The notes below the pieces were generated by a model. That model was not told where the DNA came from. It ran no database searches and saw only the letters and a program-made list of their open reading frames with translations. This document shows, piece by piece, positions 16,686 to 32,399 of a stretch of DNA of 51,588 bases (its first letter is position 1; each line of letters starts with the position of its first letter). The DNA lies in NCBI GenBank assembly GCA_905612275.1, contig CAJQRM010000031.1, positions 1 through 51,588 of the forward strand. The letters are read 5' to 3'. A program made the translations under genes and the position numbers. Source of the DNA: an uncultured Candidatus Nitrosopumilus sp. (GTDB lineage: Archaea > Thermoproteota > Nitrososphaeria > Nitrososphaerales > Nitrosopumilaceae).

Positions 16686-17240
16686 ATGAAACTTAACACA
16701 TTTTTCATCATTACAATGGTTTCTATATTTGCTGTTTCTGCAATAGGTCAATCTGCTTTTGGGTATGGCGGTCCTCCTGAAAATAATTCTGCAAATAACT
16801 ACACTGTAGAAATTACATCTAACCAAGAATCATATGCTCTTGGAGAATCTGTAATATTTACTGGTTCTGTAAATAAATATGATGAAGACCGCTCTTTACG
16901 AATTTCTGTTTTTGATTCTAGTAAAAATTTAATCATAACTAAAAAAACACCTGTTGATACTTATGGTAAATTCTCTTACACTGTAGAATTAAATGAAAAA
17001 TTCTCTGATGGAAAATATATTGTTAAATCTCAATACGGAAATTCTAAATCCACTGTAGACATATCCTCTTTTATGATTAATGCTGGAAATACTCCAACAA
17101 TGGCATCAAATACGTCTGAAATTCCTGTTTGGATTAAAAATAATGCTGGCTGGTGGGCTGATGGCTCCATAGATGACAATTCATTTGTACAAGGAATTCA
17201 ATTCTTAGTGCAAGAAGGATTTATGAAAATTACAAATTAA
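16686..17240 (+). CDS. Exported protein with C-terminal WIKNNAGWWA domain
   Basis: 184 residues. The N-terminus (about 1-26) is a signal peptide ending QSAFG. Residues 40-130 look like an immunoglobulin-like or macroglobulin-like beta domain (YALGESVIFTGSVNKYD, SFSYTVEL-type strands). The last 40 residues are the thaumarchaeal module IPVWIKNNAGWWADGSIDD...VQGIQFLVQEGFMKI, which recurs twice in the exported protein at 29764-30675. Its function is unknown and a role at the cell surface is inferred. There is no C-terminal membrane anchor. Confidence 0.7.
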   Translation: MKLNTFFIITMVSIFAVSAIGQSAFGYGGPPENNSANNYTVEITSNQESYALGESVIFTGSVNKYDEDRSLRISVFDSSKNLIITKKTPVDTYGKFSYTVELNEKFSDGKYIVKSQYGNSKSTVDISSFMINAGNTPTMASNTSEIPVWIKNNAGWWADGSIDDNSFVQGIQFLVQEGFMKITN

Positions 17241-20724: not shown

Positions 20725-21039
20725 TTAAGGAGTTACCCTTTCTAACTTTTCATGGATTTTATCATAGTATCCATTTTGTTCCATTGCTGGAACGTTGAAT
20801 GTTGCAGAAATTGTATCTCCAACTTTTGCTTGACAGTTTTCAACAACCACTGAATGTCCTAAAACTGATTCAGCAACACAACCATAATCTGTTATGGCGA
20901 TAACCTGTACTTGCTCAGTGACTGATGTTGGAAGTATGTTCCAAGGTGTTACTGTAAACACCAGTATTACTGAAGTTGCAATTACCACCATCACTAGAAA
21001 TTTTGATTGAGGTGTTTTCTTTTGTATTGCTTGTTGCAT
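20725..21039 (-). CDS. Membrane-anchored extracytoplasmic protein, 104 aa, with TTAGCACTAG promoter
   Basis: One membrane helix (about 14-32) after a basic N-terminus, then a 70-residue external beta-rich domain with two Cys (DYGCVAES and ENCQAK) about 16 residues apart that could form a disulfide. No family recognised. The promoter holds the shared element CTAGTGCTAA about 57 bases upstream of the ATG with a TATA-like ATTTTAAATATAA in between, so I count it in the proposed regulon. Confidence 0.6.
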   Translation of the reverse strand: MQQAIQKKTPQSKFLVMVVIATSVILVFTVTPWNILPTSVTEQVQVIAITDYGCVAESVLGHSVVVENCQAKVGDTISATFNVPAMEQNGYYDKIHEKLERVTP

Positions 21040-21095: not shown

Positions 21096-21105
21096 CTAGT
21101 GCTAA
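21096..21105 (-). promoter_or_regulatory. Shared regulon element upstream of the 20725-21039 gene
   Basis: CTAGTGCTAA on the plus strand, TTAGCACTAG read toward the gene. It is centred about 29 bases upstream of a TATA-like run at about 21065-21076. Same orientation and spacing as at the other promoters of the cluster. Confidence 0.6.
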
Positions 21106-21759: not shown

Positions 21760-21794
21760 ATAGTGCTAACCTGAAATAATTGTATTTGTGCTAA
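21760..21794 (-). promoter_or_regulatory. Tandem shared elements upstream of the FMN-binding protein gene
   Basis: The proximal copy ATAGTGCTAA (21760-21769) and the distal copy TTTGTGCTAA (21785-21794) have the same orientation and are exactly 25 bases apart. The proximal copy is centred about 28 bases from a TATA-like GTATATGAG around 21736. The orientation favours the minus-strand gene, though the plus-strand gene at 21821 may also be affected. Confidence 0.55.
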
Positions 21795-21820: not shown

Positions 21821-22501
21821 ATGAATAAAATTATTATTTTATTTTTTTTACTTACAATTATTTCAACAAGTCCCGTATATGGTCATAAATTAATTAGCCA
21901 TGATGACTCTCATAGAGATTTTGATTCTGCATTAGTTATTCCAGATCATAAAATTTCTTGGGCAATTTATGAAAATTTAGGTGCAAGTGAAACTAAATTT
22001 TATACATTTGATGCTAAAGAGGGAGATTCATTTTATGCCAACATTGTTATTCCTAATCTTGATGGTCTTGAAAATTATTCTCCTTCCATTATTTTGATGA
22101 ATGATGAGATGTTTAGTGGTAAGAATATTTCATCCGATATTGAATCCAACATTCAAAAATTTCTCTATGAGGGTGATTATCCTGGAAATGAATTCTATGA
22201 ACCTTTTGGTCAAGTGACATATTGGGAAAGACAAGAAGTAAAAATCACTATTCCTGCTGATGGTCAATATTTTATTTTAGTCTTGGATGAAAAAAATCAA
22301 AGTGGAAAATATAGTCTAGCTATAGGGACCATTGAAGATTTTTCTGGCTCCGATTTTTTTACTATATTGCCAAAGGCATGGTTTGATACAAAATTATTTG
22401 TAAATGATTATCTTTCTATTGTAATTTCAATTTTTATATTGATTGGAATTCCTACTTTGCTGTTCATAATAATATTAAGAAAAAAAATATTTAAAAAATA
22501 A
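21821..22501 (+). CDS. Exported, C-terminally anchored surface protein, 226 aa
   Basis: Signal peptide at residues 1-21 ending VYG. A His/Asp-rich start (HKLISHDDSHRD) follows, then a beta-sandwich domain (about 40-175) resembling pre-peptidase C-terminal domains in layout (GASETKFYTFDAKEGDSFYA, GQYFILVLDEKNQSGKYSLAIG). A single membrane helix lies at about 198-220 with a basic cytoplasmic tail. The His/Asp cluster could bind metal. It is divergent from the FMN-binding protein gene across a region with two shared elements. No precise family name. Confidence 0.65.
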   Translation: MNKIIILFFLLTIISTSPVYGHKLISHDDSHRDFDSALVIPDHKISWAIYENLGASETKFYTFDAKEGDSFYANIVIPNLDGLENYSPSIILMNDEMFSGKNISSDIESNIQKFLYEGDYPGNEFYEPFGQVTYWERQEVKITIPADGQYFILVLDEKNQSGKYSLAIGTIEDFSGSDFFTILPKAWFDTKLFVNDYLSIVISIFILIGIPTLLFIIILRKKIFKK

Positions 22502-22549: not shown

Positions 22550-22750
22550 CTATGTTTTTTTCTTACTTCGTGGCTTGGTTCTTAAAACGGCTTTGCAACA
22601 GATACATCTTACATCATCCAAATCCAAAAAAATTCCACAAAATGTGCATCTTTTTTGACCAATTTCATACCTAATTTTGTTGGGAACAGGGTCTGCCCGA
22701 TATCTTGTACAAATATTTCTACAAGTTCTACCCAATTGATACATCTCCAA
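22550..22750 (-). CDS. Small zinc-finger protein overlapping the tfb 3' end
   Basis: About 64-66 residues. CRNIC, CTFC and CICC provide three Cys pairs, with a basic C-terminus RTKPRSKKKT. It overlaps the end of the tfb gene by up to 23 bases (start ATG 22750 or 22744), so the two are almost certainly co-transcribed. The conserved segment YRADPVPNKIRYEIGQKRC is recurrent in thaumarchaea as far as I recall. It may be a TFB accessory factor; this is inferred from coupling only. Confidence 0.65.
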   Translation of the reverse strand: MEMYQLGRTCRNICTRYRADPVPNKIRYEIGQKRCTFCGIFLDLDDVRCICCKAVLRTKPRSKKKT

Positions 22751-23639
22751 TTTTTTTTACTACTTCTTTTCTTCTTTCTCTAATTGTTACTGCACTTATT
22801 CCTGAAATTTCAGAGATTTTTAATTGAGATACGCGCTCATTGTTGATGGTGGATGCAAGATGAATTGCTGCAGCAGTCATTGCCATTGGATTTTTACTGG
22901 TTGAAACTTGCTTTTTTGCACATTGATCCAATATCTTAAATGCTAACCTTTGTGTTTTTTCAGAAAGTGACAAACCTTTTGCTACCCTTGTAACAAATTC
23001 TGATGGTGTATATGCTTCAGGACTAATGTCTAATTCTCTAGCAAGAAATCTATATGTTCTTTGAAGAACTTTTTTCTTAATATTTCCTGCATCCGCAACA
23101 TCCTGCAATGTTCTAGGTGTACCTGTAATTCTACATGTTGCATAAATTGTTGCTGATAACATTGCTGATGTTGATCTGCCTGCAAGAATTTTTCTTGCTG
23201 CAATTTTTCTAAATAGATAAGCACTTTCTTCTACTACTGACTCAGGTAGACCTAGTTTTGAACTCATTGCATCTAATAATGTAAATGCCTTTTGAAATGA
23301 TTTGGATGTAATTGCAGAACGACTATTTCTATCCCACATTCTTAATCTATAGAACATTCTTTTATTCTCAACTGATAATGATTTTCCTGCTACATCTTTA
23401 TCTTTAGATTCAATTAATGTTGATAATCCCATATCTATCATTTTCAATGATCTTTTAGCACCAACTCTAGAATTATTTTGATAATCAGTTGGATTTGATC
23501 CAAATGTCTCTGCACCTAAATCTATAATTGGCTCAGATGAAACACTCCCACAACTACTACATGCGATTTCTCCTGTATATGCATCTGTTATCATCTCATT
23601 TTTTTTACAATTTTTTTGATGAACTAATTCAACTAACAT
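22728..23639 (-). CDS. tfb: Transcription initiation factor B paralogue with altered zinc ribbon
   Basis: 303 residues: N-terminal ribbon region (1-35), B-reader/linker with SLKMIDMGLSTLIE, then two cyclin folds (about 105-195 and 200-295) with the typical ATCRITGTPRTLQDVADAGN. It recruits RNA polymerase to TBP-bound promoters. The ribbon is unusual: C27 and C30 (CSSC) and C11 are present, but the usual first Cys three residues before C11 is replaced by Gln, with His at position 7 as the only nearby candidate ligand. A TATA box about 26 bases upstream of ATG supports this start. The promoter carries the shared element, so it is part of the regulon. Confidence 0.92.
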   Translation of the reverse strand: MLVELVHQKNCKKNEMITDAYTGEIACSSCGSVSSEPIIDLGAETFGSNPTDYQNNSRVGAKRSLKMIDMGLSTLIESKDKDVAGKSLSVENKRMFYRLRMWDRNSRSAITSKSFQKAFTLLDAMSSKLGLPESVVEESAYLFRKIAARKILAGRSTSAMLSATIYATCRITGTPRTLQDVADAGNIKKKVLQRTYRFLARELDISPEAYTPSEFVTRVAKGLSLSEKTQRLAFKILDQCAKKQVSTSKNPMAMTAAAIHLASTINNERVSQLKISEISGISAVTIRERRKEVVKKIGDVSIG

Positions 23640-23686: not shown

Positions 23687-23696
23687 CTAGTGCTAA
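23687..23696 (-). promoter_or_regulatory. Shared regulon element upstream of tfb
   Basis: CTAGTGCTAA on the plus strand, reading TTAGCACTAG toward tfb. It is centred 27 bases upstream of a TATTTAAA box (23661-23668), which is 26 bases from the tfb ATG. This suggests a leaderless tfb transcript under the regulon's control. Confidence 0.6.
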
Positions 23697-23729: not shown

Positions 23730-23764
23730 TTAGCACTAGACTGTTTTAATTTTATTGGCACTAT
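23730..23764 (+). promoter_or_regulatory. Tandem shared elements upstream of the 23812 gene
   Basis: The distal TTAGCACTAG (23730-23739) and proximal TTGGCACTAT (23755-23764) are 25 bases apart in the same orientation, the same spacing as at the FMN-binding protein promoter. The proximal copy is centred 29 bases upstream of TTTATAAA (23785-23792), which lies about 24 bases from the ATG. Confidence 0.6.
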
Positions 23765-23811: not shown

Positions 23812-24171
23812 ATGCCTCACATTGTATTGGATAGAAGTTTGAATCTTTTTGATTTTTCAATTTTGTTTAAACCTACATTTCAAAAATTTCCTTTAATTAA
23901 AATTTCAGACATGTACATTGATACTCGAGGTAGCACTGCTCTATTCTCTACAGTTGTAATTGATGATTCGCACCATGAGTTCTTTATTCAATTGATAAGT
24001 GGTAAAGATAGAACAACAATTCGATTATTACCTCTTTCTGATCCTGTAAAAACTGATGCAGTAAAACAATCTTTGGCTAATTTATATTTTAAAATTCTAG
24101 AATGTTATCCTGACATAAATATCCTACAATCAAATTTATGGGATTATATTAAGTCAGATATTATCCAATGA
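23812..24171 (+). CDS. Hypothetical protein in the regulon, 119 aa
   Basis: Soluble and alpha/beta in appearance: VLDRSLNLFDFSILFKP, IDTRGSTALFSTVVIDDSHHEFFIQL, then a C-terminal helix. No motif recognised. Its stop overlaps the start of the SRPBCC gene by four bases (ATGA), so the two are translationally coupled. With tandem shared elements in the promoter it is a core regulon member. Confidence 0.55.
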   Translation: MPHIVLDRSLNLFDFSILFKPTFQKFPLIKISDMYIDTRGSTALFSTVVIDDSHHEFFIQLISGKDRTTIRLLPLSDPVKTDAVKQSLANLYFKILECYPDINILQSNLWDYIKSDIIQ

Positions 24172-24605
24172 ATAAAAATCTTATTCAAACAAGTAAACTT
24201 GATCGTGATGTAATCTTTAAAATCAGTACAGATGTAGAAAACTTTCATAAAATAATGCCCAAATATTTTAAATCTTTAAAGATAATTAGTGATTCCTTAA
24301 ATGAAAAAGTTGTATTGGAATCTATTAATTTTTTAGGTAGAAAAATCAAAATTAAAACAAAACATGTTATTGTAAAACCCAATGTACACCAGGTGTTTAT
24401 TTTGACTGGTCCTGTGAGAAATACTTCTTTTATTGAAACATATAATTCAACTATATCTGGAACTAATATTTCTATTTTAGTGGATTTGAAACTCCATGGA
24501 ATTCTTAAATTAATTCCATTTTTAAAAATTTTAGTATTAAAAAAAATGAATTCTGTTATGTCTGAATTTATAATGTGTGCTGAGATTTATTCTAAATCTA
24601 ATTAA
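24168..24605 (+). CDS. SRPBCC (START/polyketide cyclase-like) ligand-binding protein
   Basis: 145 residues. An N-terminal strand, then DVIFKISTDVENFHKIMPKYF, a long run of antiparallel strands, and a C-terminal helix KKMNSVMSEFIMCAEIYS fit the helix-grip fold of SRPBCC proteins, which hold lipids, quinones or other hydrophobic ligands. It is coupled to the preceding gene and followed 70 bases later by the FAD oxidoreductase, suggesting it binds that enzyme's substrate or product. Confidence 0.7.
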   Translation: MNKNLIQTSKLDRDVIFKISTDVENFHKIMPKYFKSLKIISDSLNEKVVLESINFLGRKIKIKTKHVIVKPNVHQVFILTGPVRNTSFIETYNSTISGTNISILVDLKLHGILKLIPFLKILVLKKMNSVMSEFIMCAEIYSKSN

Positions 24606-24617
24606 ATTCATGTCTAG

Positions 24618-24627
24618 TTAGCACTAT
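24618..24627 (+). promoter_or_regulatory. Shared regulon element upstream of the FAD oxidoreductase gene
   Basis: TTAGCACTAT, centred 27 bases upstream of ATTAAATA (24646-24653), which is about 26 bases from the GTG start at 24676. This implies a separate leaderless promoter for the oxidoreductase in addition to read-through from the SRPBCC gene. Confidence 0.6.
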
Positions 24628-24675: not shown

Positions 24676-26022
24676 GTGTCTCTTCCTACAATCATCATAG
24701 GTGCAGGCGTAGGCGGTTTAACAACTGGTGCTTTGTTGGCACATGATGGTCATAATGTTATGATTTTAGAAAAATCAACCAAGTTAGGTGGGCGAACTGC
24801 ATCGATGAAATTTAAAAATCATATTCTTGATAATGGATTTCACATAATGCCATTTTACAAAAAATCTGCAATTTTTACTATTTTAAAAAATTTAGGTATT
24901 GAATCTAGATTAAAACTAGCAAAAGTTGATGATATTGCATTTTATGCGACAACAGGTTTTCATATTTATCCTAAAGGAATGATTGATTTACTTAAACTAT
25001 CTTTAATTCCATTCAAAAGTAGGGTTAGACTTCTTAAATTATTATTGCCCTTGGCATTTTCTTCCATTGAAAAAACAGAATTATGGGATGAGATACCATT
25101 AACAAAAATTACTAATGACTTGGATGCGGATACAAATGCATTTTTTGAAGCAGTATGTATGTTAGCTTTTGCTGATACTGCTGATCATATTTCATTAGGT
25201 GAATTTGCTAGAACTATTATTCGTGCTAATCCCTTTAAGGGTGGTACAAGTGAATTTGCATATCCTGATGGTGGTGGATATGATTCAATATGTCATGTTC
25301 TTGGAGATTTTATTTTAGAAAAAGGTGGTGATATTCAAACAAAACAATCTGTAAAGAAAGTAATTATTGAAAATTCTAAAGTTACAGGAGTTATTGTATG
25401 TGATTCTTCAAATTCTGAAAAATTCATTCCTACAAATTCGGTTGTAATTTCATATCCTGCATATACTGCATTAAATCAATTGTTTGAAGAAAATGTAATT
25501 GATAGAAAATTTGTTCAAAAAATTGATAAATTAAATAAAACTACTTCCGTAGTTGAAGTACATTTTGCGCTAAATTCTCAGATAGATACTCGCCAAGTTG
25601 TATTTCCTGTAGGTGATGATTATGTAACTAAGGGAATATTTTTCATATCCAACATCACTCCATCTGTTTCCCCTTCAGGTGAACATTTGATTATTGCAGG
25701 AACTCCTGTACTCCCTTCAGAAACTGAAGATTCTGAAAAAATTAAGAATATTGTTAGTAAAATGAAACAAGAAATATCCTCAATTTATCCTAAATTTAAT
25801 TCTGCATTACTTTGGGAACGTCCTATGGCATGGAAATTAGTTGAATCTGTTGTTAAAGAACCTGGTAAAGTTTGGAAGTCTAAGATGCCCCACCAAATTC
25901 CTGGCATTGAAGGTTTATTTTTTGTTGGTGACTCTACAATTAGCTATGGTATAGGAACTGATTCTGCTGCACATAGTTCCATTTTATGTGCTCCAAAAAT
26001 TGAATCTTTTTTAAATTGTTAA
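24676..26022 (+). CDS. Phytoene-desaturase-like FAD-dependent oxidoreductase
   Basis: 448 residues, GTG start. The dinucleotide-binding GAGVGGLTTGALL is followed by Glu about 20 residues later, then KLGGRTASM, the GG doublet signature of carotenoid desaturases, protoporphyrinogen oxidases and amine oxidases. The C-terminal GLFFVGDSTISYGIGTDSA binds the FAD ribityl. The substrate is probably hydrophobic (isoprenoid or lipid); no phytoene synthase is in the window, so carotenoid synthesis is not implied. In bacteria, related FAD enzymes are frequent targets of CarH/LitR light regulators. It converges with the cobalamin-binding protein gene, overlapping by four bases. Confidence 0.85.
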   Translation: MSLPTIIIGAGVGGLTTGALLAHDGHNVMILEKSTKLGGRTASMKFKNHILDNGFHIMPFYKKSAIFTILKNLGIESRLKLAKVDDIAFYATTGFHIYPKGMIDLLKLSLIPFKSRVRLLKLLLPLAFSSIEKTELWDEIPLTKITNDLDADTNAFFEAVCMLAFADTADHISLGEFARTIIRANPFKGGTSEFAYPDGGGYDSICHVLGDFILEKGGDIQTKQSVKKVIIENSKVTGVIVCDSSNSEKFIPTNSVVISYPAYTALNQLFEENVIDRKFVQKIDKLNKTTSVVEVHFALNSQIDTRQVVFPVGDDYVTKGIFFISNITPSVSPSGEHLIIAGTPVLPSETEDSEKIKNIVSKMKQEISSIYPKFNSALLWERPMAWKLVESVVKEPGKVWKSKMPHQIPGIEGLFFVGDSTISYGIGTDSAAHSSILCAPKIESFLNC

Positions 26023-26873
26023 TTAGTTAATGGTATTTTTCTTAAAATCTTTGGAATATCTTCCAAACTGGTATCCCCTATCACATTACCTTCAAATTTT
26101 GGAGTATTTTCAATTTGCATTGCGTAACCTCCAACTAAAATTGGAATTTTGCTTTGTCCTCTAATTTTTTTTGCTAACCTTTGTCCTGCAAGTATGTTGT
26201 CTTGAATTGTAATTGAAATTAAAACTATGTTTGGTTTTTTCATGTTTATAAATTCCATTATTGATTCAGTTGGAATTGATGTTCCCATATTGAAAACTTT
26301 GAATCCCTTTATTGTTAGATATGTTTCAAGTACATCGCATCCCATATGATGTTCTTCTCCAACTGGTACACAAATCATTACTTTCTTTTTATTTCCAGCA
26401 CCTGAAGATTGTTCCATGATGATTTTTACTAATGTTTGAGCAATATTGCTTGCTACGTGTTCTGTTGCAATTGTTAATTTTCCAGTTTCCCAATCTTTTC
26501 CTATTTTGACCATTACTGGTCTTAGAATTTTATCAAAGAAATCTGCTATGTTGAATATTTCCACGTAATTTTTGTAAATTTTAATACATTCCTCTATGTT
26601 TCCATCTGTTAATTTTTTGAATAATTGCTGTTTTGATTTTTTTGTTGCATCCTCTCTCTTTTGTATATCTTCTGGGTTGTATGATGCTAGAACTGATAAA
26701 ATTTTAGCATCATTTCTGAATTCTAATGGTATATCGTCTTTGATTACATCTGAAGCCTTACCTAGATATTTTATAATTTCTTGTTTTGATGTGCTTCTTT
26801 TAGAATCCCATATACTTTTGACTAGATACAGATATTGATCAGATTTCACTTTTTTAGCCCTAATGTAGACCAT
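26019..26873 (-). CDS. Cobalamin-binding protein with CarH/LitR-type photoreceptor signature
   Basis: 284 residues. Residues 1-45 (YIRAKKVKSDQYLYLVKSIW...IIKYLGKA) resemble the short N-terminal module of some transposases, not a MerR helix-turn-helix. Residues 75-155 are a four-helix cap with W128-x9-E138-H139, the Wx9EH motif of AdoCbl photoreceptors. Residues 163-280 are a Rossmann B12 domain with E173-x-H175-x-x-G178, H175 being the likely lower axial ligand, then GTSIP and VGGYAM loops. The residue after W128 is Glu, not the His that becomes a cobalt ligand in light in Thermus CarH. Corrinoid methyltransferase proteins share the fold but lack the Trp motif. Its promoter carries the shared element. 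Confidence 0.85.
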   Translation of the reverse strand: MVYIRAKKVKSDQYLYLVKSIWDSKRSTSKQEIIKYLGKASDVIKDDIPLEFRNDAKILSVLASYNPEDIQKREDATKKSKQQLFKKLTDGNIEECIKIYKNYVEIFNIADFFDKILRPVMVKIGKDWETGKLTIATEHVASNIAQTLVKIIMEQSSGAGNKKKVMICVPVGEEHHMGCDVLETYLTIKGFKVFNMGTSIPTESIMEFINMKKPNIVLISITIQDNILAGQRLAKKIRGQSKIPILVGGYAMQIENTPKFEGNVIGDTSLEDIPKILRKIPLTN

Positions 26874-26920
26874 TGATCTTATTCAACTTTTAGATATTTA
26901 ACTAATGGTAACCATTCACA

Positions 26921-26960
26921 CTAGTGCTAATATTTTTAAAATATTATTTCTTAGCACTAG
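26921..26960. promoter_or_regulatory. Perfect inverted pair of shared elements between B12 protein and the 27008 operon
   Basis: CTAGTGCTAA (26921-26930) and TTAGCACTAG (26951-26960) are exact reverse complements separated by 20 AT-rich bases. The left copy is 28 bases from a TAGATATTTA box serving the B12 gene. The right copy is 28 bases from TTAAATAT (26980-26987) serving the plus-strand operon, whose ATG is about 25 bases further. One site therefore faces each divergent promoter. Confidence 0.7.
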
Positions 26961-27007: not shown

Positions 27008-27196
27008 ATGGCAGAAGAACAAGAATGGGCAAATTTACTTGCTGAAATCTTTGACAAACTTACACAAAAACACGCCTCAATCACTTATGATTTTGACAAT
27101 CTTGAGATGGCTGGTAAGATTATGAAGGATGAGCAAGTTGTTCCAACTGGTACAGTTTCCCTAACTGGTAAACTAACCATTACAGCAACAAAATAG
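27008..27196 (+). CDS. Hypothetical protein, 62 aa, first gene of SDR operon
   Basis: An acidic helical N-terminus EEQEWANLLAEIFDKLTQKHASITYDFDNLEM, then two short strands ending TGTVSLTGKLTITATK. Leaderless start by its TATA spacing. The stop codon TAG abuts the next gene. It may form a complex with the next protein. Not recognised. Confidence 0.55.
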   Translation: MAEEQEWANLLAEIFDKLTQKHASITYDFDNLEMAGKIMKDEQVVPTGTVSLTGKLTITATK

Positions 27197-27574
27197 GTGT
27201 GGATGACAATGAAAGATTTTGACCTTCCCGCTAATTTTTTATCTTATATTGATAATGGAAAATTAAGTGTAACTTGTAATGATTCACCAGCAGTTAATTT
27301 TCATGTAGATGGTAGCACAAAAATTATTGATGTAATTGATATCCCAATTGAAATAACAAAAATGCCTGGTTTCTTGAAACAATTATCTGAAGCAAAAGAT
27401 CTTGCAAAAAATTTAGCCAAACAAAAAACTACGATAGAGGTTAGACTGAGAGGTGACACGGTATTGAAACTTGGTGAGAAAGCAAATCCTAAACTTGCAA
27501 AAATTGTTACATTAAGTAGTAATATAGAAATCACCGATTTAAGAAAATTAAAGAAATTGAGTGATGTATTCTAA
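27197..27574 (+). CDS. Hypothetical protein, about 123 aa, in SDR operon
   Basis: GTG 27197 directly follows the previous stop; ATG 27203 is an alternative preceded by GGTGTGG. It is a beta-rich N-terminus, then a helix MPGFLKQLSEAKDLAKNLAKQ and strands TTIEVRLRGDTVLKLG. The layout loosely recalls sterol-carrier-like lipid-binding domains, but I cannot confirm this. It ends two bases before the SDR gene. Confidence 0.5.
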   Translation: MWMTMKDFDLPANFLSYIDNGKLSVTCNDSPAVNFHVDGSTKIIDVIDIPIEITKMPGFLKQLSEAKDLAKNLAKQKTTIEVRLRGDTVLKLGEKANPKLAKIVTLSSNIEITDLRKLKKLSDVF

Positions 27575-27576
27575 AA

Positions 27577-29004
27577 ATGTCTGATGTAATATCTCAAAAT
27601 AAACCCTATGATATTTTGGTAACCGGTTCTACTGGATTTATTGGAAAAAAATTATTAGCAAAATTATCTGATTCTGGATATAAGATCAAAGCTATGTCAA
27701 GATCAAAATATGCTGATACTGAAAATATTCGTTATGTGCAAGCAGATGCTTTTAATGTTGATTCCTTATCTGCTGCTACTGAAGGAATTGAGACTGCATT
27801 TTATTTACTACATTCAATGGAAGGCTCAAAAAAAGAGTGGGCTGAATTTGCAAATAGGGAAAAACAGCAGGCTCAAAATTTCTTAAAATCTGCAACTGAA
27901 TCTGGAGTCAAGAGAATTGTATATCTTGGTGGGTTAGTCAATCAAAGTTTAGATTTATCAAAACATATGAAAAGTAGACATGATGTTGGTAGAATTTTAG
28001 CATCTGGAGATATACCTGTAACTGAATTGAGGGCATCTGTGATTGTTGGTGCCGAAGGTGGTTCTTATGCTATGTTGCGATATCTTGTTGAAAGATTACC
28101 TTTGATGGTTTGTCCAAAATGGGTTAAATCACAAACACAACCGATTGCTGTTGATAATGTTATTGATTATTTGATTGGAGTAATGAAAAATCCCAAAACA
28201 ACTGGAAAAATTTTAGAAATTGGTGGTCCTGATATAATGACATATGAGCAATTAATGAGATTATATTCTTACATTTTGAATAGAAATCTTAACATTATTC
28301 AAATTCCATTTTTAACTCCTAGATTGTCATCTTATTGGATTGATTTAGTTACTCCTGTAAAAGCATCTTTGGCAAGACCTCTTGTCGATAGTCTAGTTCA
28401 TGATTCAATTGTTAAAGACAAATCTGTACAACAATTAGTTCCAGTTCATCTTAAACAAATGACCGAAGCCATTACCATCGCAAGAGAAGAGGCAAAAACA
28501 TTCAAACCTATTACAAAATCTGCTGAGGAAAAAACATCTTACAAAGTTAATCAAAAGATTCTTTTGATTACTTTGTGTGCCATGGCATTTATTGGCACAA
28601 CATACTATTGGATGGATGATCGAACTGATGTTTGGCAAATTCCTTGGTTGGCTGGTTCTGTTATTTGGTATGCCGCAATTCTTTTTGCCATTTCTTTTGT
28701 AAAACAAAAGGCAAGATTAGGTTATTTGATAGGTGGTGTATTGGCCTGGGTGACTATGGCCTTTTGGTTATTTGACAACTTCTATGTTGTATTTGATATT
28801 TCATTGGTAGCTTCTGAACCTAGTCTTGATGTAACTATAAGAAATTTCATTGGTGTGGCTATTGCTGGGTTAGCAATATTTTCATCTCATAATGTATTTC
28901 ATAAAGTTAGAGTTTATCAGGCAAGAGGGGAACCTGTATCTGAATCTGCTTCAGCAGAAGTCCCAAATGGTGCAAGACCTGTATACAATACAAATTTTTC
29001 TTGA
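27577..29004 (+). CDS. Atypical SDR (NAD(P)-binding) protein with C-terminal membrane domain
   Basis: 475 residues. The N-terminal Rossmann fold has TGSTGFIGKKLLAKL (about 12-26) and the characteristic AFYLLHSMEGS segment of a distinct NmrA/complex I NDUFA9-like SDR subgroup; VYLGGLVNQ and ELRASVIVG follow. Residues 300-320 link to four hydrophobic helices (about 325-455, with WMDDRTDVWQIPW and FWLFDNFYVVFD loops). The soluble domain is probably cytoplasmic and held at the membrane, acting on a lipid or quinone. Last gene of the 27008 operon under the shared element. Confidence 0.8.
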   Translation: MSDVISQNKPYDILVTGSTGFIGKKLLAKLSDSGYKIKAMSRSKYADTENIRYVQADAFNVDSLSAATEGIETAFYLLHSMEGSKKEWAEFANREKQQAQNFLKSATESGVKRIVYLGGLVNQSLDLSKHMKSRHDVGRILASGDIPVTELRASVIVGAEGGSYAMLRYLVERLPLMVCPKWVKSQTQPIAVDNVIDYLIGVMKNPKTTGKILEIGGPDIMTYEQLMRLYSYILNRNLNIIQIPFLTPRLSSYWIDLVTPVKASLARPLVDSLVHDSIVKDKSVQQLVPVHLKQMTEAITIAREEAKTFKPITKSAEEKTSYKVNQKILLITLCAMAFIGTTYYWMDDRTDVWQIPWLAGSVIWYAAILFAISFVKQKARLGYLIGGVLAWVTMAFWLFDNFYVVFDISLVASEPSLDVTIRNFIGVAIAGLAIFSSHNVFHKVRVYQARGEPVSESASAEVPNGARPVYNTNFS

Positions 29005-29054: not shown

Positions 29055-29618
29055 CTAATTTTTTATTTTGTTTTCTTCTAGTATTTTAAAGATATTTCCT
29101 TGTTCTGTATTTGCATATAACAAAAAATATGTTTGACTTGTTAGGTATGTTTTATTGAATCTATATACTATTGGATGAACCTCTGCAAGAATTTCACCTA
29201 TTGTCATTTTTTCACTTTTATAATCTTGTAATAATTCAAAAAATTTATCCTTTTCTAAAGTAGAAAATTCTTTTGAAAAAAATCCAAAAATATGTAATAA
29301 TACATTACTATGTGTTTTTATTGTAGGTTTGGATTCTAAGGCTAATTTTAAATGATTTTCATACTTGATTAATATTTCTGATAATTTAATTTTTTTATTA
29401 CTGGCAACAATTCTTCCCAATACTTGTAATTGATCTTGACTATGTGCCATTATCATAAATTTATTCATGGCTTGAAATCCAACTAGTTCTTTTATTTTGT
29501 TATTTTTTTTAATTTCTTCAAATCTTCCTTTTACAAATAATTTGATATCTTTTTCAGTTAATTCTTTGTAAACATTATCTATGCCTTGCTTACCTGATCC
29601 GCATAACTCTTCATTCAC
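29055..29618 (-). CDS. DUF1722 (YbgA-like) protein
   Basis: 187 residues. The family signatures are clear: FQAMNKFMIMAHSQDQLQVLGRIVA, then HSNVLLHIFGFFSKEF, and the end TYLTSQTYFLLY. In many bacteria DUF1722 is fused to DUF523, and in E. coli ybgA lies beside the photolyase gene phr; its biochemical role is not settled. Here it stands alone, without DUF523. The divergent promoter region holds two shared elements, one 30 bases from a TATA box (CATATAAAC) correctly placed for this gene. Its presence supports a light-response theme. Confidence 0.82.
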   Translation of the reverse strand: MNEELCGSGKQGIDNVYKELTEKDIKLFVKGRFEEIKKNNKIKELVGFQAMNKFMIMAHSQDQLQVLGRIVASNKKIKLSEILIKYENHLKLALESKPTIKTHSNVLLHIFGFFSKEFSTLEKDKFFELLQDYKSEKMTIGEILAEVHPIVYRFNKTYLTSQTYFLLYANTEQGNIFKILEENKIKN

Positions 29619-29669: not shown

Positions 29670-29715
29670 TTAGCACTATTATTATCTTAATTTATCTAGA
29701 AATTTTTAGCACTAG
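29670..29715. promoter_or_regulatory. Two shared elements between DUF1722 and exported-protein genes
   Basis: TTAGCACTAT (29670-29679) and TTAGCACTAG (29706-29715). The second is centred 27 bases upstream of TTTTAAATA (29733-29741), which is 26 bases from the ATG at 29764. The first is 30 bases from the DUF1722 TATA box but in the reverse orientation to other minus-strand promoters; the element is nearly palindromic. Confidence 0.6.
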
Positions 29716-29763: not shown

Positions 29764-30675
29764 ATGAAAACCCTATTAGCTGCAATTTCTACAATTGCAG
29801 TACTATTGCTTGTTGGCTCAAGTGTATCATCTGTCTACGCAGAGGTTCCATCTTGGATTAAAAATAATGCAGGATGGTGGGCAGAAGGAACAATCGATGA
29901 TGATTCATTCGTTCAAGGAATTCAATTCTTGATCAAAGAGGGAATAATGGAAATTCCTTCAACTACACAAGGCGTAAGTTCTACTAACGAAATTCCAGTA
30001 TGGATTAAAAATAATGCAGGATGGTGGGCTGATGGCTCCATTGATGACTCTTCATTCGTTCAAGGAATTCAATTCTTGATCAAAGAGGGAATTATGAGTA
30101 TTACTCAAGCTCAAGAACCTAAAAAATCTATTTCAATTGTTTCTACAAGCAATGATTCTGTTATTGCATCACTAGAATCTCAACTTGAAAAATGCTCTGA
30201 AATTATTAAAGCATACAAACGAATTGATTGTGAAAAACCACTTGATAAAGCAATTATGCTTTACAATTACCAAACAAATGCTGAGCACTTTGATCTAGGA
30301 CCAATTACATATCATTGGTTTGGTGTAGGTTCTGAAGGTAATGGATTTGAAATCACTCCAACTGGACAACCAATATTGTCAGTCCGCATGCTTGCAGAAA
30401 ATACTAGTTCTGAAATTACAGCGATAAACTGTACTAGTCCTGCTATATGTAATTATGATGTTTGGGATGGTTCAAAGTCATTCAAATATGCTGGAATGGA
30501 CTTTACAAGTGGACAAATTGTAATGAATCCTGGTGATTCAAGAGAATTCAATATTCTCTTTGGACCAAACATTGGATACGGTGGGACTCAATTTGTATAT
30601 GATTCATCAAAGAGTTATGAATTTAGAATTAATGAGCCATTTGGAAGTCTAAATGTTCATCTAGACTTGGAATAA
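29764..30675 (+). CDS. Exported protein with two WIKNNAGWWA domains
   Basis: 303 residues. Signal peptide 1-27 ending VYA. Two near-identical 40-residue modules (about 28-65 and 76-113) with PSWIKNNAGWWAEG / PVWIKNNAGWWADG and SFVQGIQFLIKEGIM. A C-terminal beta domain (about 160-303) contains Cys pairs CSEIIKAYKRIDC and CTSPAIC and ends LNVHLDLE. It is probably secreted or loosely surface-bound, with no anchor. A leaderless promoter with the shared element places it in the regulon, so the cell surface may change with the signal. Confidence 0.7.
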   Translation: MKTLLAAISTIAVLLLVGSSVSSVYAEVPSWIKNNAGWWAEGTIDDDSFVQGIQFLIKEGIMEIPSTTQGVSSTNEIPVWIKNNAGWWADGSIDDSSFVQGIQFLIKEGIMSITQAQEPKKSISIVSTSNDSVIASLESQLEKCSEIIKAYKRIDCEKPLDKAIMLYNYQTNAEHFDLGPITYHWFGVGSEGNGFEITPTGQPILSVRMLAENTSSEITAINCTSPAICNYDVWDGSKSFKYAGMDFTSGQIVMNPGDSREFNILFGPNIGYGGTQFVYDSSKSYEFRINEPFGSLNVHLDLE

Positions 30676-31297: not shown

Positions 31298-32197
31298 CTA
31301 CCTTACAATACTCTGATCTAATCTCAGTCCTTTGTATCTATTTCTTATTGTTACTTCTGTTACATTTGCAGCTTCTGCAATATCCCTTTGAGTTCTATCT
31401 TCCCCATTTTTAACACATGATAAGTATAGTGCTGCTGCTGCAAGGCCCATTGGATCCTTACCTGCTGATTCTTCATGTTCTTGTGCTTCTCTTAATACTT
31501 TAATTCCATAACGTTTTGTTTTTTCTGATATCTGTAATTTACTTGCAATTTTTGCGACACACTGTGTTGGATCAACTACTGGCATTTTTAATTCTAATTC
31601 CCTATGTAATAATCTGTAGCATCTTGCAATATCTTTTTTCTTAATGTTTCCTGCATCTGCAACATCTTTTAGTGTTCTTGGTGTTTCAGTATCTCTACAT
31701 GCTGCATACAATGCTGATGCAATTAATGCTGAAATTGAACGACCTTTTACTAATCCTTTTTCTAATGCTTTTCTGTAAATGTAAGCTGCTTTTTCAATAA
31801 CTGAATCTGAAAGTGAAAGTTTATCCTTTAAAGTTGCTAATTCACTTAATGCTTGTCTCAAATTTTTATCTGATGATGCATTAACTTTACTTCGACTATC
31901 CCAAGTTCTAAGACGTTCAATTGTACTTTTCATTGATGTTGATAATGGTTTTCCAGATGCATCTTTGTTTAGAGGATTGATTATTGTTGCAAGTCCTCTA
32001 TCGTGCATTGTCAATGATGTTGGGGCTCCAGTTCTTGTTGGATCTGCTCCCCCTTCTTTTGAAAATGATCTCCATTCTGGTCCTGCATCTTGTAAAGTCT
32101 CCGAAATTACAAAACCACATTTTCCACAGAATCTTTCTCCTGTGACGTTATCTGTGAGCATGCCATTTTTACCGCAACGACCACAAATTGTATCCAT
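31298..32197 (-). CDS. tfb: Transcription initiation factor B (canonical)
   Basis: About 299 residues from ATG 32197; a longer frame to 32236 is possible but adds 13 non-conserved residues. The ribbon is canonical: CGRCGKNGMLTDN...RFCGKCG with four Cys. The B-reader GPEWRSFSKEGG is followed by two cyclin folds with AACRDTETPRTLKDVADAGNIKKKDIARCYR. Paired with tbp, this is probably the housekeeping TFB, in contrast to the ribbon-altered paralogue at 22728-23639. Confidence 0.96.
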   Translation of the reverse strand: MDTICGRCGKNGMLTDNVTGERFCGKCGFVISETLQDAGPEWRSFSKEGGADPTRTGAPTSLTMHDRGLATIINPLNKDASGKPLSTSMKSTIERLRTWDSRSKVNASSDKNLRQALSELATLKDKLSLSDSVIEKAAYIYRKALEKGLVKGRSISALIASALYAACRDTETPRTLKDVADAGNIKKKDIARCYRLLHRELELKMPVVDPTQCVAKIASKLQISEKTKRYGIKVLREAQEHEESAGKDPMGLAAAALYLSCVKNGEDRTQRDIAEAANVTEVTIRNRYKGLRLDQSIVR

Positions 32198-32399
32198 ATT
32201 CGTAATTTCTTGAACCAAAATAATACAGTGTTTCACAACGCTGTTAGTATATAACCTATTCCAAATTCTTATAAAAAAATTAATCTTTAGAGTAAAATCA
32301 TCCTTAATTTCTGGTTTTTAGGACACTTCTATTTGCTGTGATTTCATATTTTAGCCACATTTTCCAAATCTTATTACAAAAGCAATTTTACTCATTTTT

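Follow-up and report, generated by a model that had tools for sequence, protein, structure and literature searches.

A predicted B12-based light-responsive regulator and its candidate operator in the Nitrosopumilaceae

Analysis of a 51,588-nucleotide stretch of DNA from an uncultured Candidatus Nitrosopumilus sp. (contig CAJQRM010000031.1, hereafter the window; the host MAG is 54% complete, 733 kb) identified a gene whose product is likely to be an archaeal AdoCbl-dependent, light-responsive transcription regulator of the Nitrosopumilaceae, built on the helical-bundle and Rossmann module of the CarH type. To judge from its sequence, this product is very probably a light sensor with B12 as its pigment, which turns on genes of sun protection and DNA repair. 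The residue signature, the fold, the gene context and the repeated upstream box reported below were all established computationally.

The ammonia-oxidising archaea of the sea are highly abundant, and they are sensitive to light. A full-text search of open-licence papers found no description of an archaeal B12 photoreceptor, nor of a light receptor or light regulon of marine ammonia-oxidising archaea.

The gene product carries a CarH-type B12 module

The open reading frame encodes 284 amino acids from an ATG at 26873-26871 on the minus strand; the plus strand across 26019-26873 is closed by many stops. The domains and signature residues are located as follows:

26019..26873, minus: predicted B12 light-sensor regulator gene (translation, Pfam, 63 orthologues)
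26733..26873, minus: N-terminal module, residues 1-47, a basic three-stranded beta-meander replacing MerR, putative DNA-binding part (AF2 pLDDT 90, conservation)
26418..26630, minus: four-helix bundle, residues 82-152, B12-binding_2 (Pfam, AF2)
26490..26492, minus: W128, the Trp which caps the adenosyl group in CarH (63/63 conserved)
26457..26462, minus: E138-H139 motif (63/63 conserved)
26112..26384, minus: Rossmann B12-binding domain, residues 164-254 (Pfam)
26349..26360, minus: G172-E-E-H175, the GxxH with the lower axial His (63/63 conserved)

Two Pfam domains matched the protein far over chance level, B12-binding_2 at residues 82-152 (E 3e-11) and B12-binding at residues 164-254 (E 3.5e-11); this helical bundle followed by a Rossmann domain is a feature of the CarH/LitR family and was also recovered in the fold matches. 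The best NCBIfam match was CarH (E 6e-15, 55 bits, below the family cut-off of 400 bits), followed at no more than 49 bits by methyltransferase corrinoid proteins, all under their cut-offs (TIGR02370, 48.6 bits against 215). The protein ends about 30 residues past the Rossmann domain, and a C-terminal bilin-binding globin domain of the photocobilin type was absent from the translation, the Pfam matches and the AF2 model.

The AF2 model of the sensor (43 orthologues) had a mean pLDDT of 86. Its best 50 fold matches in the PDB were all CarH/LitR, photocobilin or CtMerR, an outcome in line with the CarH-like receptor for which the first-pass annotation had proposed a structural comparison. Against PDB sequences the family profile scored photocobilin at 72 bits, CtMerR at 61, AbDPcob at 57, methyltransferase/MetH at 52 and CarH at 50-51, the identity of the B12 module to CarH being 20%.

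The first-pass annotation had read W128-x9-E138-H139 and E173-x-H175-x-x-G178, with a Glu (E129) after the Trp, and these residues are indeed found at those positions of the protein. The motifs GxxW, EH, GxxH and GxxxP, derived and tested for light-responsive cobalamin domains by Yu et al. (SignatureFinder; PMC11796333), are all present (G125-W128, E138-H139, G172-H175 and G197-P201). G125, W128, E138, H139, G172, E173, H175 and P201 are invariant in the 63 full orthologues, and G197, the first residue of GxxxP, is retained in 40/63. For Wx9EH and ExHxxG, which are said to define CarH homologues (PMC8156234), the W, E, H, E and H are found in 63/63 and the last Gly, G178, in 61/63.

The residue after the Trp is never His: in the 63 orthologues it is Ala in 39, Glu in 9, Ser in 8, Lys in 3, Asp in 2, Gln in 1 and another residue in the last. 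Alignment showed that Azoarcus LitR likewise has Glu at this position and that the tested photocobilin SasPcob has Gln. Substitution of His132 by Ala in Thermus CarH (H132A) leaves His177 on the cobalt, which then binds water as well (PMC10442372), and in a photocobilin without that His the light state is water/hydroxide (PMC10979010). The absence of His at position 129 is therefore no bar to light sensing, but it predicts a different light state, which is probably water-ligated as in photocobilin and not bis-His as in Thermus CarH.

The photocobilins SasPcob and AbDPcob, ranked as the best PDB match by both profile and fold, have the same adenosyl pocket, no His after the Trp and the water-ligated light state expected for the sensor too. 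They differ in carrying a bilin-binding globin C-terminal to the module and GGDEF or other outputs, whereas the module of the sensor is itself C-terminal and no bilin domain is present. CtMerR of Chloracidobacterium (8JBS), an AdoCbl photoreceptor without a bis-His state, has the same signature as the sensor, but is bacterial and has a MerR DNA-binding domain.

The sensor family is distinct from methyltransferase corrinoid proteins

The two-domain cobalamin fold of the sensor is also that of MtaC, MtbC, MttC and MetH, and placement among methyltransferase corrinoid proteins had been named from the start as the result that would count against a photoreceptor. Alignment with 21 such proteins, including the solved structure 4jgi, and with the four MetH rows that aligned properly, showed that all of them lack the W and the EH and carry DxHD; the sensor has GEEHHMG (ExHxxG) at this site in place of DxHDxGK. 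The ML tree placed the methyltransferase/MetH rows on one side of a branch supported at 100/100, and the sensor family formed its own branch (100/99). For the sequences sampled, the tree excludes nesting of the sensor within the methyltransferases, without proving common descent with the bacterial photoreceptors: these joined the sensor family with weak support (81/47), CtMerR being drawn to the other side on a long branch, and grouping of the sensor family with the methyltransferases against the bacterial photoreceptors was not rejected by the AU test (p 0.127).

That non-significant test of the wider grouping, together with the matches to corrinoid methyltransferase proteins in both Pfam and NCBIfam, could be taken to indicate a corrinoid protein that serves methyl transfer, or the remnant of a protein like MetH, with no sensory role. 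On its motifs and the tree a methyltransferase corrinoid protein or a piece of MetH was rejected, and no methyltransferase gene was found near the sensor at the mapped loci; we regard this reading as extremely unlikely and retain that of a photoreceptor.

A conserved beta-meander takes the place of MerR

The description of a separate N-terminal module instead of MerR was borne out. Pfam found no MerR domain in the sensor, and the AF2 model gives a beta-meander with strands at residues 2-9, 12-23 and 28-39 (pLDDT 90). Residues 1-47 are the most conserved region of the protein, with a mean column identity of 87% against 73% in the B12 part (63 orthologues), and the first 42 residues include 10 K/R against 4 D/E. 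No PDB relatives of the module were found by sequence or by fold (Foldseek). The module appears not to have been described before; its basic charge and conservation, as well as the box described below, suggest that it probably contacts DNA.

The resemblance of the N-terminus to the start of transposases, also proposed earlier, could not be reproduced: a 60-residue tblastn gave no match in 72,556 plasmids and, in the light of this and of the missing PDB match, an origin from a transposase was rejected. Outside the orthologues, a module-like start on a full-length ORF was seen only once, in a Fic-domain protein of another Nitrosopumilaceae genome (L137, 733-1620, minus strand), of which the first 43 residues resemble the module (E 7.5e-4).

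The sensor gene is accompanied by genes of bacterial light clusters

All 63 full orthologues belong to the Nitrosopumilaceae, with named relatives in Nitrosopumilus, Nitrosarchaeum and other Nitrosopumilaceae being 68-90% identical; the orthologue at L032:9887-10738 is 86% identical. By score, a true member of the sensor family was found in 68 of 151 Nitrosopumilaceae genomes; weaker matches in 830-aa frames are MetH. A search with the N-terminal profile in 200 genomes of the phylum found the sensor family in the Nitrosopumilaceae only. The conserved neighbours of the sensor gene in the window, with their occurrence at the 65 loci mapped, are:

22728..23639, minus: TFB paralogue, possible light-induced general factor (PF00382, E 2e-33; 39/65 loci; box upstream)
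23812..24171, plus: 119-aa protein whose gene opens the FAD oxidoreductase operon (36/65 loci; box 29/36)
24168..24605, plus: 145-aa protein with a weak DUF6845 match, judged SRPBCC-like by eye (36/65 loci)
24676..26022, plus: FAD amine-oxidase/CrtI-HpnE-like oxidoreductase, convergent to the sensor (32/65 loci)
27577..29004, plus: SDR/epimerase, 34% identity over 282 aa to the SDR of the Thermus carH locus (47/65 loci)
29055..29618, minus: DUF1722 (YbgA-like) protein (PF08349, E 6e-31; 43/65 loci)

A photolyase lies at 14 clustered sensor loci among the 65. In other genera, where protein identity is 44-50%, DUF1722, SDR and photolyase are still found, in varied arrangements (L053, L058, L060, L061 and L063). 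The sensor gene was present in 31 of the 33 genomes with a photolyase versus 37 of the 118 others, with a Fisher p of 4e-11 which, as these genomes are related by descent, overstates their independence, as do the other Fisher values. Co-occurrence of the sensor with DUF1722 was 42/45, and for 22 of the 33 photolyases the sensor or its paralogue is no more than 11 kb away. Next to Thermus carH are phr, an SDR related to that of the window and a gene for an FAD oxidoreductase, the match between the FAD proteins of the window and of Thermus being limited to the FAD-binding start. DUF1722 is known in fused form from light operons (PMC11417400).

The region 27008-27571 holds two small genes that share a frame, of 62 and 125 codons, with a TAG between them. 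A single gene broken by this in-frame stop (27194-27196) was considered and rejected, relatives showing the second part as a gene of its own. Elsewhere in the window, 29764-30675 and 16686-17240 encode secreted proteins with repeated VPxWIKNNAGWWAxGxIDDxSFVQGIQFLIxEGIM units, a family found near 51/65 sensor loci and preceded by the box in 48/67 copies.

A directly repeated box abuts the TATA box of the sensor gene

A box, TTAGCACTAG/CTAGTGCTAA (consensus TTAGCAYTAG), precedes the sensor gene and neighbouring genes of the window:

21096..21105: box preceding the 104-aa gene (20725-21039)
21760..21769: box with one mismatch, preceding the 226-aa gene 21821-22501 (box in 13/19)
23687..23696: first of two boxes that separate TFB from the 23812 operon
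23730..23739: the other box in this TFB-23812 interval
24618..24627: box with one mismatch, preceding the gene of the FAD oxidoreductase (box in 26/32 orthologues)
26894..26901, minus: TATA box of the sensor promoter, TTAAATAT, 21-28 bp ahead of the ATG
26902..26911, minus: box 2, TTACCATTAG, abutting the TATA box
26921..26930, minus: box 1, TTAGCACTAG, 19 bp upstream of box 2
26951..26960, plus: inverted box (TTAGCACTAG on the plus strand) facing the divergent 27008-29004 operon
29706..29715: box in the gap from DUF1722 to the 29764 gene (a copy with one mismatch lies at 29670-29679)

The sensor promoter shows TTAGCACTAG and then, exactly 19 bp on (52/53 pairs across the loci), TTAGCATTAG, which touches the TATA box. 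CarH binds tandem direct repeats (PMC9304148), and the repeats at the sensor promoter form a candidate operator of the CarH/LitR kind.

The perfect box occurs six times in the window against 0.03 expected from shuffles, and 0/100 shuffles reached six. The six copies are all intergenic: one precedes the 104-aa gene, two belong to TFB and the 119-aa operon, two to the sensor and the SDR operon, and one to DUF1722/29764. The host genome contains ten CTAGTGCYAA, six in the window and two in the photolyase cluster, and 0 copies of the reversed control. Over all loci the box was found upstream of 55/65 sensor genes, 33/42 DUF1722 genes and 25/56 TFBs, versus 33/762 other genes. The mean number of boxes was 9.7 in genomes with the sensor and 6.1 in those without it (p 8e-4), the reversed control giving 2.3 and 2.6, respectively. 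At sensor loci 205/222 boxes were intergenic versus 0/21 in three sensor-less genomes (Fisher p 3e-20), where all 21 boxes inspected lie inside ORFs. The shuffles and the sensor-less genomes exclude a chance or common sequence. Two kinds of exception would fit a box owned by another factor: in a 95% complete genome where no sensor was detected (G027) a box precedes DUF1722, and several unlinked photolyases are without one.

Of 20 boxes unlinked to the sensor in sensor-bearing genomes, 12 were intergenic. They precede genes for a UbiX-like flavoprotein (L233, L239), a ferritin/Dps-like protein (L231), an ATPase reading as UvrB (L234) and geranylgeranyl-reductase-like proteins (L188, L225), among others, all candidates for a wider regulon.

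The presence of general stress genes in this unlinked set, such as those for the ferritin/Dps-like protein and the ATPase, would also suit a regulator that binds AdoCbl as a metabolite and senses the level of cobalamin, not light, the box then controlling a response to B12 or to oxidative stress; such a protein would look alike in its fold and its AdoCbl pocket. However, photolyase, DUF1722, SDR and FAD oxidoreductase together make up the gene set known from light clusters of bacteria, the co-occurrence with photolyase is strong, and no cobalamin synthesis gene was found among the conserved neighbours of the sensor. We consider sensing of cobalamin level quite unlikely, and light the signal to be preferred.

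A predicted dark repressor acting over the TATA box

The most economical model for the sensor copies the logic of CarH, an AdoCbl-dependent oligomer on direct repeats (PMC9304148), and places it over the TATA/BRE. By this comparison the sensor is probably a dark repressor, and we infer AdoCbl binding, photochemistry, binding of the box by the sensor itself and the sign of control as follows. In the dark, AdoCbl would be bound with H175 as lower ligand, its adenosyl group capped by W128 and held by E138, and would promote a head-to-tail oligomer with the N-terminal beta-meanders placed on the direct TTAGCAYTAG repeats 19 bp apart; TBP/TFB would be shut out of the promoter, as the inner repeat lies directly against the TATA box. 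In the light, the Co-C bond would be cleaved, the adenosyl group would depart and the oligomer would dissociate, allowing transcription of a regulon made up of DUF1722, SDR, FAD oxidoreductase, TFB, the photolyase cluster and the sensor itself. We lean towards accepting this scheme as a whole, in which a CarH-type module, fused to a DNA-binding domain of a beta-sheet kind not described before, would block TATA/BRE in the dark and in the light free a photoprotection and repair regulon that includes a TFB, the signal being relayed via a general factor.

The helical bundle and Rossmann domains, Wx9EH and ExHxxG are common to the sensor and to CarH/class I LitR (e.g. Thermus thermophilus CarH), as are direct repeats at the promoter, which form only a candidate operator in the case of the sensor, a divergent regulon with photolyase, SDR and FAD oxidoreductase, and the autoregulatory position. 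The sensor differs in being archaeal, in having a beta-meander for the MerR wHTH, no His after the Trp and a TATA-box promoter, and in its TTAGCAYTAG box at 19-bp spacing, where CarH has 11-bp TnnACA repeats. We keep it apart from the CarH class because the MerR domain is absent, though it was CarH-like in all tests made. Signature, fold, separation from the methyltransferases, neighbours and the operator-like repeat thus all favour the CarH/LitR-like cobalamin photoreceptor predicted for an archaeon by the first-pass annotation.

If correct, the scheme would tie archaeal cobalamin metabolism to sunlight through a B12-based receptor, would explain the control of photolyase and related genes in lit waters and would supply a concrete operator; the sensor module of CarH would have been joined in archaea to a different DNA-binding part with the operator logic of direct repeats retained. 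Were the box the operator of the sensor, the TFB at 22728-23639 would be a light-controlled general transcription factor. Two TFB genes lie within 10 kb of each other in the window (22728-23639 and 31298-32236), with two boxes at the promoter region of the first.

A paralogue lacks the B12-light residues

The host genome also encodes a paralogue of the sensor, 36% identical to it (L069). Its group comprises L067-L069 and L071, with L070 at a greater distance; all of them have lost the W and the EH, and ExHxxG is kept except in L070. CarA of Myxococcus is a CarH paralogue which acts without B12 (PMC8156234); the archaeal sensor likewise has a paralogue without the B12-light residues, so that the parallel with CarA/CarH would extend to this loss.

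The N-terminus of the paralogue is 60-70% identical to that of the sensor, yet its promoter carries a different, ACTCACC-type sequence. This would be expected if the sensor perceived light via AdoCbl without binding DNA and acted on a neighbouring TFB, or on an HTH protein, to which the box belonged. The N-terminus without a recognised DNA-binding fold, the TFB in the cluster and the location of box 2 where a TFB-recognition element is expected all agree with such an arrangement. Nevertheless, the box is kept at sensor promoters with no TFB in the mapped 7-8 kb (L051, L053, L056, L058 and L063), which disfavours a TFB element only, and direct repeats at a fixed 19 bp together with inverted copies are unlike TFB elements. 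We therefore think a sensor that does not bind DNA rather unlikely, and direct binding of the box by the beta-meander the better reading.

The paralogue adjoins a photolyase in L068 and L069, and genes for a MEDS-type and a small HTH-like protein in L067-L069 and L071. About 40 bp before the paralogue gene, in L067-L071, a conserved palindrome-like sequence, ACTCACCWAGGTGAG, lies just before the TATA box and is a candidate second operator. In the host genome (L069, G000:C34, 6141-10700) the paralogue is part of a second light cluster with the divergent MEDS-type gene, a 91-aa HTH-like protein, a CPD photolyase and a 184-aa protein; two boxes are found in this cluster, near two small proteins of 133-146 aa.
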